IMG/VR virus record: IMGVR_UViG_3300042881_001505
Location: 1-29,107 of that record
From: a virus
Direction: 5' to 3' (one strand)
Length of the DNA: 29,107 nucleotides
A program made the position numbers and the translations under genes. Under the pieces are notes generated by a model that made no database searches, was not told where the DNA came from, and worked only from the letters and a program-made list of their open reading frames with translations. Below, piece after piece: positions 1,669 through 27,132 of the stretch; within the stretch, counting starts at the first letter, position 1, and the number at the start of each line of letters is the position of its first letter.

Positions 1669-1688
1669 GGGCAGGATAAATTTTTACG

Positions 1689-1717
1689 TTGACAAACACT
1701 TACCTTTGGTGTATAAT
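1689..1717 (+). promoter_or_regulatory. Consensus sigma70-type promoter P1, upstream of the HNH gene
   Basis: TTGACA at 1689-1694 and TATAAT at 1712-1717 are separated by exactly 17 bases, a perfect match to the housekeeping sigma consensus. Transcription should begin near 1724, giving a leader of about 24 nucleotides before the ATG at 1748. The -10 box lies between two inverted-repeat arms described separately. No terminator is visible just upstream, so read-through from the terminase genes is expected as well. Confidence 0.88.
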
Positions 1718-1737
1718 ACTCTTATCTCCAAAGGTGG
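1700..1737 (+). promoter_or_regulatory. Inverted repeat spanning promoter P1 that can hide the HNH ribosome binding site
   Basis: Bases 1700-1709 (TTACCTTTGG) can pair with 1728-1737 (CCAAAGGTGG): eight Watson-Crick pairs plus two G-U pairs, with an 18-nucleotide loop containing the -10 box. The 3' arm is the Shine-Dalgarno sequence AAGGTGG at 1731-1737. RNA read through from terL would carry both arms and hide the site, whereas RNA started at P1 (about 1724) lacks the 5' arm and leaves it free. An operator role in DNA is an alternative. Confidence 0.6.
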
Positions 1738-1747
1738 TTTTTTACTT

Positions 1748-2176
1748 ATGGCCAAAAACACAAACAAACGAATTCCGGTAAAGTGGGTTCGTGACAGGGC
1801 AAAAGCCGCATACGAGAAACAAGATTGCTGTTATATATGTAGCACCAAAGTCGATTTGGAACTGCATCACTTACACAGCGTAACACTATTGTTGGAGCAG
1901 TGGGCTCAGCGCAAGCAGTACGATATCAGTACCGACGAAGGCATTTTAGCTGTAAGAGACGAGTTTATTGCAGAACACCATAGTGAACTATATGACCAGG
2001 TTTACACCCTATGTAACCGACACCATGTAGCGCTACACGGAGTCTATGGTAAAACTCCAAGACCAGGGTCAGAGCCTAAACAGGCTCGCTGGATAGAACT
2101 ACAGCGTGAAAAGTTTTTGGGTGGTGATGTTATACCTAAGCAATCGCAAGGCAGCTGGTTCAGCCAATTTTGCTAG
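1748..2176 (+). CDS. HNH endonuclease, probably free-standing/mobile
   Basis: This 142-residue protein has an HNH/zinc-ribbon layout: CYIC (Cys28, Cys31), the first catalytic His pair in LELHHLHSVT (His40-His41), and LCNRHH (Cys89, His92, His93). It should cut or nick DNA. The start at 1748 is preferred over an in-frame ATG at 1706, because 1706 precedes the -10 box of P1, whereas 1748 has AAGGTGG ten bases upstream. It sits between terL and portal with its own promoter, as intron-less homing endonucleases often do. However, HNH proteins next to terminase can also aid packaging (as HK97 gp74 does), and sequence alone does not separate the two roles. Confidence 0.85.
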   Translation: MAKNTNKRIPVKWVRDRAKAAYEKQDCCYICSTKVDLELHHLHSVTLLLEQWAQRKQYDISTDEGILAVRDEFIAEHHSELYDQVYTLCNRHHVALHGVYGKTPRPGSEPKQARWIELQREKFLGGDVIPKQSQGSWFSQFC

Positions 2177-2185
2177 GGTCAAAAC

Positions 2186-3364
2186 ATGGGTTATATAACT
2201 AATTTGCGCCACTATTTAGTGGAAAAGCTAAATCCAGCGCAGTACAGAATTGCAGACGCCGAGGGCACACAGATTGGTACGGATGCCAAACCGCTTACCT
2301 ACTCTCAGGCGTTTAAAAAGTTGGAGTCTGTTAATCGCAGTGTAGGCATGCTGGTAGCAGCCTGCAGCTCGCTAGACTACGACATAAAAGATAAAGTACA
2401 CGACGGTGTACAAGGCGGTGTGCGTCAAAAGACGCTAAACACACTGTTGAACTTTCGACCAAACCCTTACCAGAGTGCACTGGAGTTTCGTCAGTGTATA
2501 TTCACTGACTTGTTGCTGGAAGGCAATGCATTTGTGCACTTTGATGGTACATTTTTATACCACTTGCCCAGTGCAAACGTCGAAATCTTAACAGACCAAA
2601 AAACATTTATTAAAGGCTACAGATACAACGGTGCTGTTGACTTTAAGGAGTCGGAAGTATTTTACTTTCGTGATGTAAGTAGTGAGAGTATTTATCGTGG
2701 TGCATCGCGACTGGAAGCAGCCGAACGTAGTATCAAGATCTTGTACTCAATGCAACAATTCCAAGAGCAGTTTTTTGATAACGGTGCTGTTTTTGGACTA
2801 GTATTAACATCGGACAACACTTTATCGCAAGTTGCTAAAGAAAAAACAATTAGTTACTGGTTACAAAAATACAGCTCAAAAAATGGCGGCAAGCGTCCAA
2901 TCATCTTGGATTCGGGCTTAAAGCCACACAACATTAGTGACACAAGTTTTAAAGAAATGGACTTTGACCAGTCTATTAAAACACACAGTGAAAAAATTAT
3001 GACTGCGGTTGGTGTACCCCCAATTTTATTAATGGGAGGTAACAATGCTAACATTTCCCCTAATTTACGCCTATTTTACCTGGAAACAGTGTTACCAATG
3101 GTGCGCAGATACGTGTCTAGTATCGAGAGATACTTCGGATATGACGTGGAACCAATTACAAGCAATGTTAACGCACTTCAGCCTGAGCTTAAAGACATAG
3201 CTCAATATCATGTAAGTTTGGTTAATGGTGGAGTTATCACTCCTAACGAAGCCAGAACAGAATTGCGTTATGCCAAACTGGAAGGGCATGACGAGTTAAG
3301 AATACCGGCTAATATCGCCGGTAGTGCTGCTGATCCATCGCAAGGTGGTAGACCTCAGCAATAA
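2186..3364 (+). CDS. Portal protein (HK97 family)
   Basis: A 392-residue portal, the dodecameric ring at one capsid vertex through which DNA enters and to which the neck attaches. Length and pattern fit the HK97 portal family: an early SVNRSVGMLVAACSSLDY helix, LLLEGNAFVHF, FYFRDVS followed by YRGASRLEAAE (about 165-180), a central KIMTAVGVPPILLMGG segment, then ETVLPMVRRYVSSIERYF and the tail GGVITPNEARTELRY. The C-terminus is polar and Gln/Gly/Pro-rich. The start at 2186 lies nine bases after the HNH stop with only a weak AGGG upstream, so translation may depend on coupling. It is followed by the capsid polyprotein gene with a strong AAAGGAG site. Confidence 0.95.
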   Translation: MGYITNLRHYLVEKLNPAQYRIADAEGTQIGTDAKPLTYSQAFKKLESVNRSVGMLVAACSSLDYDIKDKVHDGVQGGVRQKTLNTLLNFRPNPYQSALEFRQCIFTDLLLEGNAFVHFDGTFLYHLPSANVEILTDQKTFIKGYRYNGAVDFKESEVFYFRDVSSESIYRGASRLEAAERSIKILYSMQQFQEQFFDNGAVFGLVLTSDNTLSQVAKEKTISYWLQKYSSKNGGKRPIILDSGLKPHNISDTSFKEMDFDQSIKTHSEKIMTAVGVPPILLMGGNNANISPNLRLFYLETVLPMVRRYVSSIERYFGYDVEPITSNVNALQPELKDIAQYHVSLVNGGVITPNEARTELRYAKLEGHDELRIPANIAGSAADPSQGGRPQQ

Positions 3365-3373
3365 AGGAGTATT

Positions 3374-5299
3374 ATGGTAGATAAAGATAAAATACTTTAC
3401 TTTAATAGTAAGTTTACTGCGAAGGCACTACCAAAAGACGATGACGAAGATCAGAGCATTATGATTGAGGGTTACGCGTCTACCAACGACAAGGATCGCC
3501 ACGGCGACGTGGTGCCCGCAGGTGTTTGGGAAAAGGGAATGCAGGAGTATGTAAAGAATCCTATCATTCTTGCTTATCACAATCACACAATGCCCGTTGG
3601 CAAAATGGTAGAACACAAAGTTGACGACAGGGGATTGTGGATTAAAGCCAAAATCTCTGATGCGGCCGGCGATGTGTATAAGTTGATTAAGAAAGGCATT
3701 CTGAGTGCTTTTAGTATTGGATTCCGTATCAAAGATGCAGAGTACAATACAGCAGCAGAAGTTTTCTTAGTTAAAGATTTGGAACTACATGAAATTTCAG
3801 TAGTGTCAGTACCAGCTAATCAAAATACATTATTTAATCTTTCCAAGTCATTTGACAATGACGAAGAATATAGTTTATTTAAACAGCAATTTGCACCCAG
3901 CAGCGAGTCAGCTAAAGGGCTAGAATCCTCAACGGAAGCAAATGGCGACATTACAAAGGAATGGAACATGGATCCAAAACAATTAGAGCAAATGTTAGCA
4001 GATGCCGCTGCTAAGGCTGCTGAGCAGACAGCTAAGGCCCTAGTACAGGCCCAAGAAAAGGCTGCCGCTGAGAAGGCTGCCCAAGAAAAGGCAGAAGCAG
4101 AGCTACAAGCTCGTATCAAGGCTGCCGTTGCAGCAGTAACACCAACAGAAACTGGTGCTGAGAAGCTACTAGCTGAAGTTGAAAAGCGTTTCGAAAACGA
4201 GCGCGCTGAGCAGAAGAAAGCCCTAGAAGGTCTAGAAGCTGCACTAAAAGAGAAGGCTTCCGAACTAGAAGCTATTCAAAAGAGCCGTATGCAGTTCACC
4301 GACGCTAAGCAAGGTGAAATGAGCTATCAGGACAAGGAAAAGGCTGTTCTGCTGGCTAAGATGGCTGGTAAGAGCCTAGAGAGCACCAAGTTTGGTGGTC
4401 AAATGGTTCAAAAGTATGGTGCACACGTACCAAGCGCTACATGGGAACTTGAAGTTAGCCTAAACATGGAAAACGAAGTTCGCCGTCGTCTAGTGATTGC
4501 TCCTACTCTGCGTGCTATCGCTATGCAGACCAATGTTATGACTATCCCTGTAAATCCAGAGGCTGGCATGGCAACATGGGTACAGAACGCTCAGTTCGGT
4601 ACAAGCAATAGCGCAGGTGGCAATGCTACTCACGCTCTAAAAGAAATCACCTTGAATGCATACAAGGTTGCTACAAACGAGTACGTTGCTTTCGAAGAGG
4701 AAGAAGACGCTCTACTAGCAATCATGCCAGTTGTACGTGATGCCATGGTTCGCCGTGTTGCTCGTGCAGTTGACAAAGCATTCAGTCTGGGTGCTGGTGC
4801 AGGCGCTGATCCTGTTAAGGGTCTGGCCGCTTATGACGCAGCAAGTGCAGTTACACTAGATATCAGCAATGCTGACAAGCTAACTGTTGCTAAACTGCGC
4901 GATGCACGTCGTGATCTAGGTGCTTGGGGTCTAGACCCATCCGAAATGATCTATGTTGTTAGCACAGAAGGTTACTTTGACCTACTAGATGATGCTAACT
5001 TCCAGACAATGGATAAAGTTGGTACACAAGCTACCTTCCTAACAGGTCAGATCGGTACTGTTGCAAATACTCCAGTACTAGTAAGTGCTGAGTTCAACAG
5101 CAAGGCCGCTGGTGAAGTTGCTGCTATTGCATACGCACCAATGAACTTCGTAGTTGGTAATCAGCGTGGTCTACGTGTTGACACAGACGACCTGGTTGAA
5201 ACACAGCGTCGTGTAATGGTTGCTAGCCTGCGTACAGGTCTAACACAAATTACAACAAACAACGGTGCTGGCGTAAGCGCTATCCGTTACGTAGCTTAA
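3374..5299 (+). CDS. Fused prohead protease, scaffold and HK97-fold major capsid protein
   Basis: This 641-residue ORF joins functions encoded by separate genes in HK97. Residues 1 to about 160 are a U35-type prohead protease: RHGDVV, the His in ILAYHNH (His69), the Ser in LSAFSIGF (Ser114), and LELHEISVVSVPAN. Residues about 199-315 are Ala/Glu/Lys-rich and predicted coiled coil, matching the cleaved delta/scaffold domain. Residues about 320-641 are the capsid fold, with RRRLVIAPTLRAIAM, EYVAFEEEEDALLAI and a typical GLRVDTDDLVETQRRVM end. Codon use becomes strongly biased from about 3960 (Leu CTA, Lys AAG, Arg CGT), as expected for an abundant shell protein. AAAGGAG precedes the start. A separate internal start at 3968 could supply extra shell protein. 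Confidence 0.95.
   Translation: MVDKDKILYFNSKFTAKALPKDDDEDQSIMIEGYASTNDKDRHGDVVPAGVWEKGMQEYVKNPIILAYHNHTMPVGKMVEHKVDDRGLWIKAKISDAAGDVYKLIKKGILSAFSIGFRIKDAEYNTAAEVFLVKDLELHEISVVSVPANQNTLFNLSKSFDNDEEYSLFKQQFAPSSESAKGLESSTEANGDITKEWNMDPKQLEQMLADAAAKAAEQTAKALVQAQEKAAAEKAAQEKAEAELQARIKAAVAAVTPTETGAEKLLAEVEKRFENERAEQKKALEGLEAALKEKASELEAIQKSRMQFTDAKQGEMSYQDKEKAVLLAKMAGKSLESTKFGGQMVQKYGAHVPSATWELEVSLNMENEVRRRLVIAPTLRAIAMQTNVMTIPVNPEAGMATWVQNAQFGTSNSAGGNATHALKEITLNAYKVATNEYVAFEEEEDALLAIMPVVRDAMVRRVARAVDKAFSLGAGAGADPVKGLAAYDAASAVTLDISNADKLTVAKLRDARRDLGAWGLDPSEMIYVVSTEGYFDLLDDANFQTMDKVGTQATFLTGQIGTVANTPVLVSAEFNSKAAGEVAAIAYAPMNFVVGNQRGLRVDTDDLVETQRRVMVASLRTGLTQITTNNGAGVSAIRYVA
3968..5299 (+). CDS. Possible internally initiated scaffold-capsid protein (443 residues)
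   Basis: An in-frame ATG at 3968 (codon 199 of the fusion) begins MDPKQLEQML, exactly where the protease and linker end and the coiled-coil scaffold begins. AAAGGA at 3955-3960 stands seven bases before it, an ordinary Shine-Dalgarno spacing. Initiation here would make protease-free capsid subunits in excess of the protease fusion, as lambda does by starting Nu3 inside gene C. The codon-bias change also begins close to this point. This is inference from sequence; a single polyprotein is the alternative. Confidence 0.6.
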   Translation: MDPKQLEQMLADAAAKAAEQTAKALVQAQEKAAAEKAAQEKAEAELQARIKAAVAAVTPTETGAEKLLAEVEKRFENERAEQKKALEGLEAALKEKASELEAIQKSRMQFTDAKQGEMSYQDKEKAVLLAKMAGKSLESTKFGGQMVQKYGAHVPSATWELEVSLNMENEVRRRLVIAPTLRAIAMQTNVMTIPVNPEAGMATWVQNAQFGTSNSAGGNATHALKEITLNAYKVATNEYVAFEEEEDALLAIMPVVRDAMVRRVARAVDKAFSLGAGAGADPVKGLAAYDAASAVTLDISNADKLTVAKLRDARRDLGAWGLDPSEMIYVVSTEGYFDLLDDANFQTMDKVGTQATFLTGQIGTVANTPVLVSAEFNSKAAGEVAAIAYAPMNFVVGNQRGLRVDTDDLVETQRRVMVASLRTGLTQITTNNGAGVSAIRYVA

Positions 5300-5309
5300 T
5301 TTTAAGCAG

Positions 5310-5340
5310 GACAGGGATTGAAAAATCCCTGTCTTTTAAT
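5310..5340 (+). terminator. Hairpin H1 after the capsid gene, terminator-like
   Basis: GACAGGGATT at 5310-5319 pairs perfectly with AATCCCTGTC at 5324-5333 around a GAAA tetraloop, followed by TTTTAATT. The T-run is short and interrupted, so termination may be partial. It begins 11 bases after the capsid stop codon, where it would also protect the abundant capsid message from 3' decay. Its 3' arm is shared with hairpin H2. Confidence 0.7.
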
Positions 5341-5371
5341 TGGATTTTACAGAGTCCAATTAAAAGACAGG
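5328..5371 (+). promoter_or_regulatory. Hairpin H2, alternative to H1, covering part of the connector ribosome binding site
   Basis: CCTGTCTTTTAATTGGA (5328-5344) is perfectly complementary to TCCAATTAAAAGACAGG (5355-5371): 17 base pairs with a ten-base loop. The lower six pairs reuse the 3' arm of H1, so full H1 and full H2 exclude each other. The 3' end of H2 covers AGG of the AGGAGG Shine-Dalgarno (5369-5374) for the gene starting at 5382. H2 should therefore lower its translation, and H1 should relieve that. Confidence 0.65.
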
Positions 5372-9698: not shown

Positions 9699-10066
9699 TA
9701 CTGCTTAGAGAGTGGCTTGTAAATTATATGCAAAATACCGCTGTTGGAATGACCAAGGAGCGATATTTTGATATGTGTGAACAATTGGGCACACAACCTA
9801 TTGATAGTGAAACTCCTGTAGAGTTTGACGATTTTCCTGCCGAAGCACAGTTAGCATTAAGCATATATAAACTACTACGAGACGAGTGGGAATATATGGC
9901 CGGAAATTATTTAGGTAAAAACTTAAATGGTATATTTGAAGTTTTTGATGCATATGAAATAGAGGCCTGCGATAAACGGTTTTATTTAGAATTAGTCCAC
10001 ATGATTGATTCAGTTAGAATCGAAGAAATTAGAAAACAACAACCAAAAGAAAAACCCGCTAATTAA
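9285..10066 (+). CDS. Tail assembly chaperone GT, -1 frameshift product (join 9285..9680 and 9680..10066)
   Basis: A minor share of ribosomes should shift -1 at GGGAAAC (9674-9680), adding 128 residues to the first 132 to give a 260-residue protein. The T frame is open from 9656 and reads LLQEQLILLREW and VNYMQNT across the G stop, then KERYFDMCEQLG and a helical, acidic domain. The ATG at 9728 is the first in the T frame but lacks a convincing ribosome site, so an independent T protein is unlikely. In lambda the T part recruits the tube protein to the tape measure-chaperone complex. The stop lies inside the following terminator. Confidence 0.85.
9674..9705 (+). promoter_or_regulatory. Programmed -1 frameshift signal: slippery heptamer plus hairpin
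   Basis: The heptamer G GGA AAC at 9674-9680 is in the correct X XXY YYZ register for gene G, one base different from lambda's GGGAAAG. Nine bases downstream, AGCAGT (9690-9695) pairs with ACTGCT (9700-9705) around a TAAT loop holding the zero-frame stop codon. The -1 frame stays open across the site and enters the T domain. Confidence 0.88.
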
Positions 10067-10083
10067 AACCTAGCGGGTTTTTT
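10051..10083 (+). terminator. Intrinsic terminator at the end of the T reading frame
   Basis: AAAACCCGCTA (10051-10061) pairs with TAGCGGGTTTT (10071-10081) around a nine-base loop, running into a six-T tract at 10078-10083. The stop codon of the T frame (10064-10066) is in the loop. A promoter follows 20 bases later, so this separates two transcripts. Confidence 0.92.
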
Positions 10084-10103
10084 ATTGCTAAAAATATTTT
10101 GGT

Positions 10104-10132
10104 TTGACAATTGGCTACTATAATGCTATAAT
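10104..10132 (+). promoter_or_regulatory. Consensus sigma70-type promoter P2, upstream of the tape measure gene
   Basis: TTGACA at 10104-10109 and TATAAT at 10127-10132 are 17 bases apart, and TGC just before the -10 box makes it an extended -10 as well. The expected start is near 10139. A second TATAAT at 10119-10124 is too close to the -35 box. ATTGG...TAC (10110-10118) and GTACCAAT (10134-10141) are near-complementary arms around the -10 box, a possible operator. Confidence 0.88.
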
Positions 10133-10178
10133 GGTACCAATTAATAATCTACCTATACAGGTTGGCCAAGGAGCATCT

Positions 10179-13100
10179 ATGGCAGGAAATCCAATTAACA
10201 TTAATCTTAATGTTACTGATAATGGTGATACATTAAAGAAGCGCAATCAAGAAGCCAAAGAACTTGGGCAACATTTAACTCGCGCCGCACAATTATCAGA
10301 AAAAGCACTTAGACCAGCTGCACAAAAACAGCCAGGAGAGGGCACAGAATACGGTCGCGCTCGTGGTAGCATGGGCACTACCGGAGCAAGCGCACGAGAT
10401 TTTGCAAACCAAGCACAGGGTCTTGGTGGTTTAGTTCGTTTATACGCTACAGTTGCTGCTAATTTATTTGCGGTAGGGGCAGCTTTTAATGCTCTGCGCG
10501 AAGCAATGAATACAAGCAACATGATAGAGGGCTTAAATCAGCTTGGTGCACAAAGCGGTCAGAGTCTTGGCATTTTGGCAAAAAACTTAGCAGCAGCTAG
10601 CGGTGGCGCCATTAGTTTACGTGAAGCCATGGAAGCAACTGTAAAAGCTACAAGTAGTGGCATGAGCAGTAAACAACTAATGGAACTCGGCAAAGTTGCT
10701 AGAAATGCATCACAGGCCTTAGGCTTAACCATGAGTGATGCTATAAGCAGATTAACTCGCGGTATTACAAAACTAGAACCAGAACTATTAGACGAATTAG
10801 GCTTATTTACTAAGCTAGACATGGCCACACAACAGTATGCGCTAAGTGTAGGCAAAAGTACTGCAGCTTTAACAGATCTTGAGCGTCGCCAGGCATTTGC
10901 CAATGCTGTACTAAAAGAAGGTATAGATAAGTTTGGTGGAATTGATATACCCACTAATCCATACGACAAATTATTATCTAGTTTAAAGAATCTAGCACAA
11001 AACGGCCTAGAAGCAGTAAATAAATATTTAGGTCCGCTAATAAATGCATTGAGCCAGTCACCTTCAGCACTAACTGCAGCTATTGCAGCAGTGGGCGTCA
11101 CTTTAGTAAAACAGGCACTTCCAGCTATTGGTGAATATAGGGAGGGGCTAAAGTCTTCTGCAGATGCTGCTGCTGAATTGGCAGGCCGTAAAGCCGCTGC
11201 CGCACTACAGGCACAGGCGGCTGTAGCAGAAAAAGTTCGTTTAGCTGCAGAAGCTAATGCAGAGGCAGAAGTAGCTGCTGTTGATAAGGCTGCCAAAAGA
11301 ATTGAACAGATTCGTGGCACTAGCTTTGGAAAGCAAAGTAGGGGGTATGCTATACTTCAAAAAGCTACCCAAGATGTTACCAAAGAAGAGCTTGAATATC
11401 TACAAAAAGTAGGTGACAGATATAAAAAATCTGGTAAACAAGAAATAGCCGATAGATACTATGCAGCTAAAGCTGCCATTGAGTCAAGTAAGCAGGCAGA
11501 AGAAGCCTATGGAAAAGTAGTAGAAGAAAATACCAAGAAACTAAAAGAACAATCCAATATATTTACAGCTAGAGGGCAGGCTGAAGCCCTAGCAAAACGT
11601 ACGGCCGCTATAGCGGCTAGTAAAGGTATTGTAAGTCAGGCAACTCAGGATACTGGTACATTGGGTGCATTTGGTGCATTCAAAGAAATGATGGATAGTA
11701 TCACAAAGTCTGACAAAATGGGCCCAATAAGAAAAGGTTTCACAGCTATAGCAGGCTCTATATCTATAGCTACAACTGCTATTACTGGTTTTGTTGGTGC
11801 TATACAAGGATTTCTATTTGCAGGTGCAGCAGTATTGGCACTTTTAAAAGGATTAGATGCCTGGATGACTTCTTCTGAAGAACAAACAGTCGCATTCAAT
11901 GGTGCTTTAGACGCCTCCAACGAGTCTATAAAAACATACGAACGTACACTAGCACTACTACTAAAAACTGATCCGGAAAATATATTTCAATCAAAAGTAG
12001 TAATGGCTCAGGCCAATGCATTCAAAGGATTAGTTGAAAACTTAACAGAAGTTCGTGAAAAGTTCGAAGAGCTTACAAAAGCACAAAATGGTTGGGATAG
12101 ATTTGTAGACAGATTGTTGAGTGTAGTAAACAAGGACCAGCTATCAAAGTTTGCAGAAGGCACAGTTAAGCAAATTGCAGCTAGTTTAGCGGCAATAGAT
12201 AGTGATGCAGAAAGACAAGCTGCCCAAAGCCAGATATCTAACTTGTTAGGTGCTAAAGGTACTGGACAAATAGAATGGTTACAGGCCATAAAAGAACAAG
12301 GTCCTGAAGCTGCAAAGTCTATAAAGGCCGTAGAAGGCGTATTTGCCGGAATTAGTAAACAACAACAACTAGCAGCAGCTCGTAGTGAAGAGTATGACGA
12401 AAGCTTAAATAAACTAAATAAAACTTATAAAGAATTTGTTCGTAGTACTTTAGACACTTCACCAGCGACAAAGCTGGGCGAAGACATGGTGAATGCTAGT
12501 GTTAAATTAGCTGGAGCTTTACAAGATCCTATAAATAGTATAGGAAACATGAAGAGACTGCTGCAAGAATCAGCAATTACTGGTTTATTTAGCCCAGCTA
12601 CAGTACAGCAAATAAATAGACTAAAGCCAGAGATTGAGTCTCTAAATAAACTGCACGGTGCAACCACAATTGAACTGAAAAAAGCACGACAAGAAGTAGC
12701 AGCACTAACCCTAGACTATGAAAAAGTTCAAAAGTCTTATGAGGGAACAACAACAGGTGTAAATGCAGAGTTTGGTGGGGACATGGTGCCTTCACAAGTT
12801 GCTAACTTAGAGCAGGTTGGTGAAAAACTAAACAAAGCCCAAGCACGATTGCTAGAACTAGCCAAAAAAGATACTGAAGAACGCAAAAAGATTGCAAGCC
12901 TAATGGCCGAACCAGTATTTAGAGAGTTAGTTGTTGAAGGTTTTGAAAAGGGCTCTAATTTAGTAAAGCGTGATTTAGACGCAGCTTTTGAAAAAGCACG
13001 TATTGGATTAGCCCGTGGCATTATTGGTCTAATAGGGGAAGTACCTGGTGTAGCACAGCTAGAGTCTAAACTAAATCAAGCAGATTTTAAACTGCGTGAA

Positions 13101-27062: not shown

Positions 27063-27100
27063 AAATACCCTGCTCAAATCATTGGGCAGGGTATTTTTTT
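27063..27100 (+). terminator. Strong intrinsic terminator closing the tail-fibre transcript
   Basis: AAATACCCTGCTCAA (27063-27077) pairs with TTGGGCAGGGTATTT (27082-27096), 15 pairs with one G-U and a four-base loop (ATCA), ending in a run of T to 27100. A promoter follows four bases later. Confidence 0.93.
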
Positions 27101-27103
27101 GCA

Positions 27104-27132
27104 TTGACAACACTCTGCCCTTGTGGTATAAT
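27104..27132 (+). promoter_or_regulatory. Consensus sigma70-type promoter P3
   Basis: TTGACA at 27104-27109 and TATAAT at 27127-27132 with a 17-base spacer. The expected start is near 27139. CTGCCC in the spacer (27115-27120) is complementary to GGGCAG in the terminator just upstream (27084-27089), extendable to nine pairs with one G-U. Confidence 0.9.

Follow-up and report, generated by a model that had tools for sequence, protein, structure and literature searches.

A conserved sigma-70-type promoter coincides with a lineage-specific hairpin ahead of a predicted T5-type nickase gene

Introduction

In phage T4, the ribosome sites of e, soc and I-TevI, like that of mobE in phage Aeh1, are masked on early RNA and freed on RNA that starts at an internal late promoter (PMC3014915, PMC2988022), and the hairpin structure of T4 gene e is kept in related phages (PMC3014915). 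Phage T5 uses host sigma-70 for all gene classes, early and late, with strong sigma-70 promoters at the late genes (PMC7472727).

Here we analyse the window, a stretch of 29,107 nucleotides of viral DNA (IMG/VR record IMGVR_UViG_3300042881_001505, positions 1 to 29,107), in which a first-pass annotation had described a T4-like arrangement ahead of an endonuclease gene (Table 1). The locus resembles T4 e, I-TevI and Aeh1 mobE in having an internal promoter between the hairpin arms, a right arm over the ribosome site and a long RNA that is masked according to folding predictions. It differs from them in that the hairpin is unconserved in relatives, the gene is not mobile, there is no late sigma factor, a T6 run follows the stem and the short RNA is partly masked. 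We do not class the hairpin as a member of this group; it would work like the T4 system at most in one lineage.

The promoter, on the other hand, resembles the sigma-70 promoters of T5 and its relatives in its near-consensus hexamers, 17-base spacing and A/T-rich upstream tract, and also in the conserved bases 3' of the -10 box and the same place in the gene order. The hexamers are TTGACW/TATAAT in the freshwater group versus TTTACA/TATACT in the isolates, and the TGCY of the spacer is an extra feature of the freshwater group.

Table 1 Features of the terL-portal region, in window coordinates.
Feature	Position	Strand	Source
terL, terminase large subunit, gene 5' of P1	367..1668	+	Pfam Terminase_6N/6C; phrog_2
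A/T-rich tract 5' of the -35 box, family consensus AAAWWTTT, UP-element-like	1678..1688	+	logo of 38 nonredundant relatives
Promoter P1: TTGACA, 17-base spacer, TATAAT; predicted start ~1724	1689..1717	+	
Left hairpin arm TTACCTTTGG, coinciding with the conserved spacer element TGCYTTnGG (here TACCTTTGG, 1701-1709)	1700..1709	+	
Right hairpin arm CCAAAGGTGG, holding the AGGTG ribosome-site-like stretch	1728..1737	+	
T6 run adjoining the 3' end of the stem, terminator-like with the 18-base loop	1738..1743	+	
'HNH gene', 142-aa ortholog of T5.153 (nicking endonuclease of T5)	1748..2176	+	phmmer to PDB 9qgv
Portal protein gene, following the nickase gene in the presumed P1 operon	2186..3364	+	Pfam Phage_portal

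Results

The gene order of the window is terS, terL, the 142-aa gene, portal and a protease-capsid fusion. In T5 the order is terL (T5.155), T5.154, T5.153 and portal, and the T5-like isolates share with the window the order terL, small gene, portal. A search of isolate phages with the window at the DNA level gave no match, and protein searches group the phage near T5-like phages. The product of the 142-aa gene matches PDB 9qgv, 'Nicking endonuclease', with an E of 1.6e-24 (phmmer), and the 9qgv chain is itself a full-length match to T5.153. A Pfam search with the same product returned no HNH family, even at E 10. The closest described protein is the T5 nicking endonuclease (T5.153, UniProt Q6QGD4, PDB 9qgv/9qgx), with which it shares 40% identity over 124 residues and the position between terL and portal; T5 differs in that T5.154 lies between terL and the nickase, and nicking by the window protein is a prediction. 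By homology and gene order, the gene at 1748 is an ortholog of the T5-type nicking endonuclease.

The first-pass annotation had called it an HNH gene. A mobile homing endonuclease is ruled out, since the gene is resident: freshwater relatives and isolates alike keep it in the fixed order terL-nickase-portal, and it is not sporadic. The nickase was also sought in bacterial genomes as a lead to the host, and none was found there. Many relatives (for example L020, L024, L031, L039 and L100) have a ferritin/Dps-like gene (PF00210) after the P1-type promoter and ahead of the nickase, at the place of T5.154 in T5. Further downstream, at 3374-5299 of the window, the head maturation protease and the major capsid protein form a single fused ORF; they are separate genes in the T5-like isolates examined.

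The perfect promoter noticed in the first pass, TTGACA-17-TATAAT with its -10 box in the hairpin loop, was confirmed (hexamers at 1689-1694 and 1712-1717). The window contains three such perfect promoters, all on the + strand (P1 at 1689, P2 at 10104 and P3 at 27104), as against none in 100 shuffles. In relatives, a promoter with at least 10 of 12 matches is present in 96 of 105 distinct gaps downstream of terL, with a spacing of 17 in nearly all and the -35 box usually 17-20 bases 3' of the terL stop; the T5-like isolates also carry a promoter in this gap.

Conservation extends beyond the hexamers. The logo of 38 nonredundant relatives from the freshwater group, each of which has TTGAC and TA(T/C)AAT, reveals the spacer element TGCYTTnGG, the A/T tract before the -35 box and ACTAG after the -10 box; spacer positions 12-15 are T in 95%, G in 95%, C in 92% and Y in 100% of these relatives. 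The A/T tract may act as an UP element. The extended motif TTGACW-N6-TGCY-N7-TATAATACTAG has at least 120 matches in viral contigs and stands directly after terL in 112 of the 115 matches examined. In about 85,000 bacterial genomes it has 3 matches, which is roughly the number expected by chance according to our own estimate. The motif (1689-1722 in the window; L169-L239 among the relatives) is phage-specific. At the same offset of the spacer, P3 has TGCC and P2 the near-match TACT.

The hexamers, the 17-base spacing and the conservation in relatives make it well supported that P1 is a genuine sigma-70-type promoter, its activity being predicted. In the literature searched, we found no transcript start mapped to the terL-nickase gap. 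Because of the gene order, and since no terminator-like hairpin occurs before 5309, P1 probably drives genes beyond the nickase, namely the head genes.

The hairpin itself was likewise confirmed, with the coordinates given in the first pass: ten base pairs join the arms at 1700-1709 and 1728-1737, eight of them Watson-Crick (ACCTTTGG/CCAAAGGT) and two U-G, the latter at the base of the stem (1700-1737 and 1701-1736). The stem closes a loop of 18 bases with a dG of about -12.9 kcal/mol, and its stability ranks 10th among the window stems of at least ten pairs. In the left arm, TACCTTTGG is the spacer element TGCYTTnGG with A replacing G. That the downstream arm is the ribosome site also proved correct: the right arm contains an AGGTG-type site 11 bases from the ATG, and AGGTG is all that the gene at 1748 has as a ribosome site.

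We then consider how far such a structure is expected by chance. The 72-base stretch 1689-1760 adopts the hairpin at -14.5 kcal/mol, a value reached by 7 of 200 shuffles. With the promoter and the ATG held fixed, about 2% of shuffles have a stem of at least ten pairs spanning the start point. When 9 pairs, a loop of at most 20 and five T of eight are required, 0.5% of shuffles have a stem with a T-rich tail; under criteria fitted to the observed hairpin the figure is 0.025%. Both of these frequencies are post hoc. Part of the coincidence is built in, because the CYTT of the spacer element TGCYTTnGG complements the AAGG of a ribosome site. The stem with its T6 tail is improbable by pure chance in any given gap, and may therefore have a function in the window lineage.

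The hairpin is not kept in related phages, unlike that of T4 gene e. A search for the hairpin pattern gave hits only in near-identical contigs (99.7% DNA identity) and at one unrelated chance site; the latter, in L279, was rejected as a second carrier, as it lies inside an ORF on the other strand. In L087 and L088, which are the next closest phages at 80-81% DNA identity, the promoter and the AGGTG are intact, and both arms are altered without compensation. Masking of the start, measured on the long RNA against upstream-shuffled versions, has a mean z of -0.09 +/- 0.17 over 50 nonredundant gaps, and the 49 gaps excluding the window show no family-wide masking (mean z -0.13 +/- 0.16). The window is the third of the 50 gaps when compared with its own shuffles (z 2.1). 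Two relatives with masking above their shuffles (L039 and L031) were not counted as support: their stems are different and lie at the ferritin-like ORF instead of the nickase, and the choice of start codon for L039 is open to doubt. The results show a hairpin confined to one near-identical lineage, in which the proposed RNA switch is possible, without evolutionary backing.

Finally, we compared the predicted folding of the long and short transcripts. In read-through RNA (from 1600 or 1400), positions 1731-1737 are predicted to be unpaired 3-4% of the time with an opening cost of 9.8-9.9 kcal/mol, as compared to 23% and 5.0 kcal/mol in RNA from 1724. A helix over the ribosome site is thus predicted for the long transcripts (site unpaired 3%, 9.9 kcal/mol), and the corresponding differences in opening cost between long and short RNA are smaller at P2 and P3 (1.3 and 2.1 kcal/mol). 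The short RNA pairs its ribosome site and AUG as well (CCA.AGGUGG....UUACUU.UGG, -5.3 kcal/mol), so the difference in masking is not all-or-none. The expected contrast between RNA 1600-1800 and RNA 1724-1800 therefore holds in part: masking of the site is predicted to be stronger in the long RNA, and the short RNA is partly masked too. The 201-base region 1600-1800 folds no better than its shuffles (z -0.33).

Discussion

We favour, with a probability of roughly 60%, a reading in which a conserved promoter is overlapped by a lineage-specific hairpin and no switch is maintained. P1 would be a strong sigma-70-type promoter from which this T5-like phage transcribes nickase, portal and capsid; host RNA polymerase would start near 1724, and the RNA would be translated from 1748. 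The hairpin would be an overlap peculiar to this lineage, in which the left arm is P1's own spacer element and the right arm, around the ribosome site, is complementary to it by coincidence. Any effect on terL read-through RNA would be secondary. The claim that the endonuclease is silenced on terminase read-through RNA is not supported, given that the stem is absent outside the lineage, the left arm is promoter spacer and the short RNA is partly masked.

Masking of the type described for T4 e, soc and I-TevI would have the terL read-through RNA hide the ribosome site, and the P1 RNA, which lacks the left arm, be translated. The geometry is an exact fit, and the predicted opening costs and the rank of the window among the 50 gaps point in the same direction. 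We still regard this mechanism as unlikely, since the stem is kept in no relative outside the lineage, even at 80% DNA identity, and the P1 RNA would be partly masked too. A search for P1-like sites in a near-identical contig (L085) found no early promoter in the 4.6 kb upstream of the window start. In addition, a late sigma factor is absent from T5-type phages (PMC7472727). T5 uses sigma-70 both early and late (PMC7472727), so that no counterpart of the T4 rationale, early read-through versus a late sigma factor, is shown here.

Alternatively, the hairpin and T6 run could form a weak intrinsic terminator within the promoter, so that read-through would stop at about 1743 and P1 RNA, without the left arm, would pass. 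The hairpin would then stand in for the terminator between terL and the promoter in T5-like isolates, of which STG2 and Slocum carry a separate one. The T6 run directly adjoins the stem, and the standard d-score at P1 is 12.7; two clearer terminators in the window score 20.0 and 21.5, and the structure before P2 scores -4.7 (an 18-base loop is outside the usual range of the formula). With a stem of at least 9 pairs, a loop of at most 20 and a T-rich tail as criteria, the + strand of the window has four terminator-like structures (one each ahead of P2 and P3, one after the capsid gene and the one at P1), three of them at the three promoters, where 0.35 are expected in shuffles. Of the features of an intrinsic terminator, the P1 structure has the U6, but its loop is 18 bases long and its stem base is weak: next to the T run it consists of two G-U pairs and one A-U pair, and the d-score drops to -33.9 without the G-U pairs. 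In freshwater relatives the gap lacks such a structure; of 50 gaps overall, 3 have one, two of these being from distant isolates. We consider such a terminator doubtful, and about as likely as ribosome-site masking because of the T6 and d-score features and the separate terminators of STG2 and Slocum. Either of the two, if acting, would shield the nickase operon against read-through from terL, and the lineage-specific hairpin would then be a compact insulator.

A further reading gives the conserved promoter spacer element a second role, as 5' arm of the hairpin, so that a 38-base stretch would serve the window lineage as promoter, terminator and translational mask at once. If this were true, the combined element would replace the separate terminator of T5-like isolates; we find it improbable. 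A DNA operator for a dimeric regulator astride the P1 -10 box is very improbable: a perfect 8-base dyad does flank the -10 box and the start, but neither arm has a further copy in the window, P2 and P3 included, the arm centres are 26 bases (about 2.5 helical turns) apart and the repeat is not conserved.

The preferred reading, of a conserved promoter with a lineage-specific hairpin, suggests that a layout like that of a textbook phage switch can arise through chance complementarity between a promoter element and the ribosome site that follows. In place of a speculative switch, it puts a well-supported, conserved and phage-specific promoter for the nickase, and probably for the head genes, in a large group of uncultured T5-related phages.

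Other sites of the window combine similar elements. At 27063-27132 a terminator is followed at once by the perfect promoter P3, which is kept with its TGCC spacer element in relatives (L284-L287). A terminator and the perfect promoter P2 lie at 10051-10179, ahead of the tape-measure gene; its start is probably the ATG at 10179, with AAGGAG upstream, because the earlier in-frame TTG at 10104 and ATG at 10131 overlap P2. After the capsid gene, at 5308-5371, two strong overlapping inverted repeats (-18 and -26.8 kcal/mol) share AAGACAGG; the first is terminator-like and the second has no T run, and T5 has a putative terminator at the same post-capsid position.
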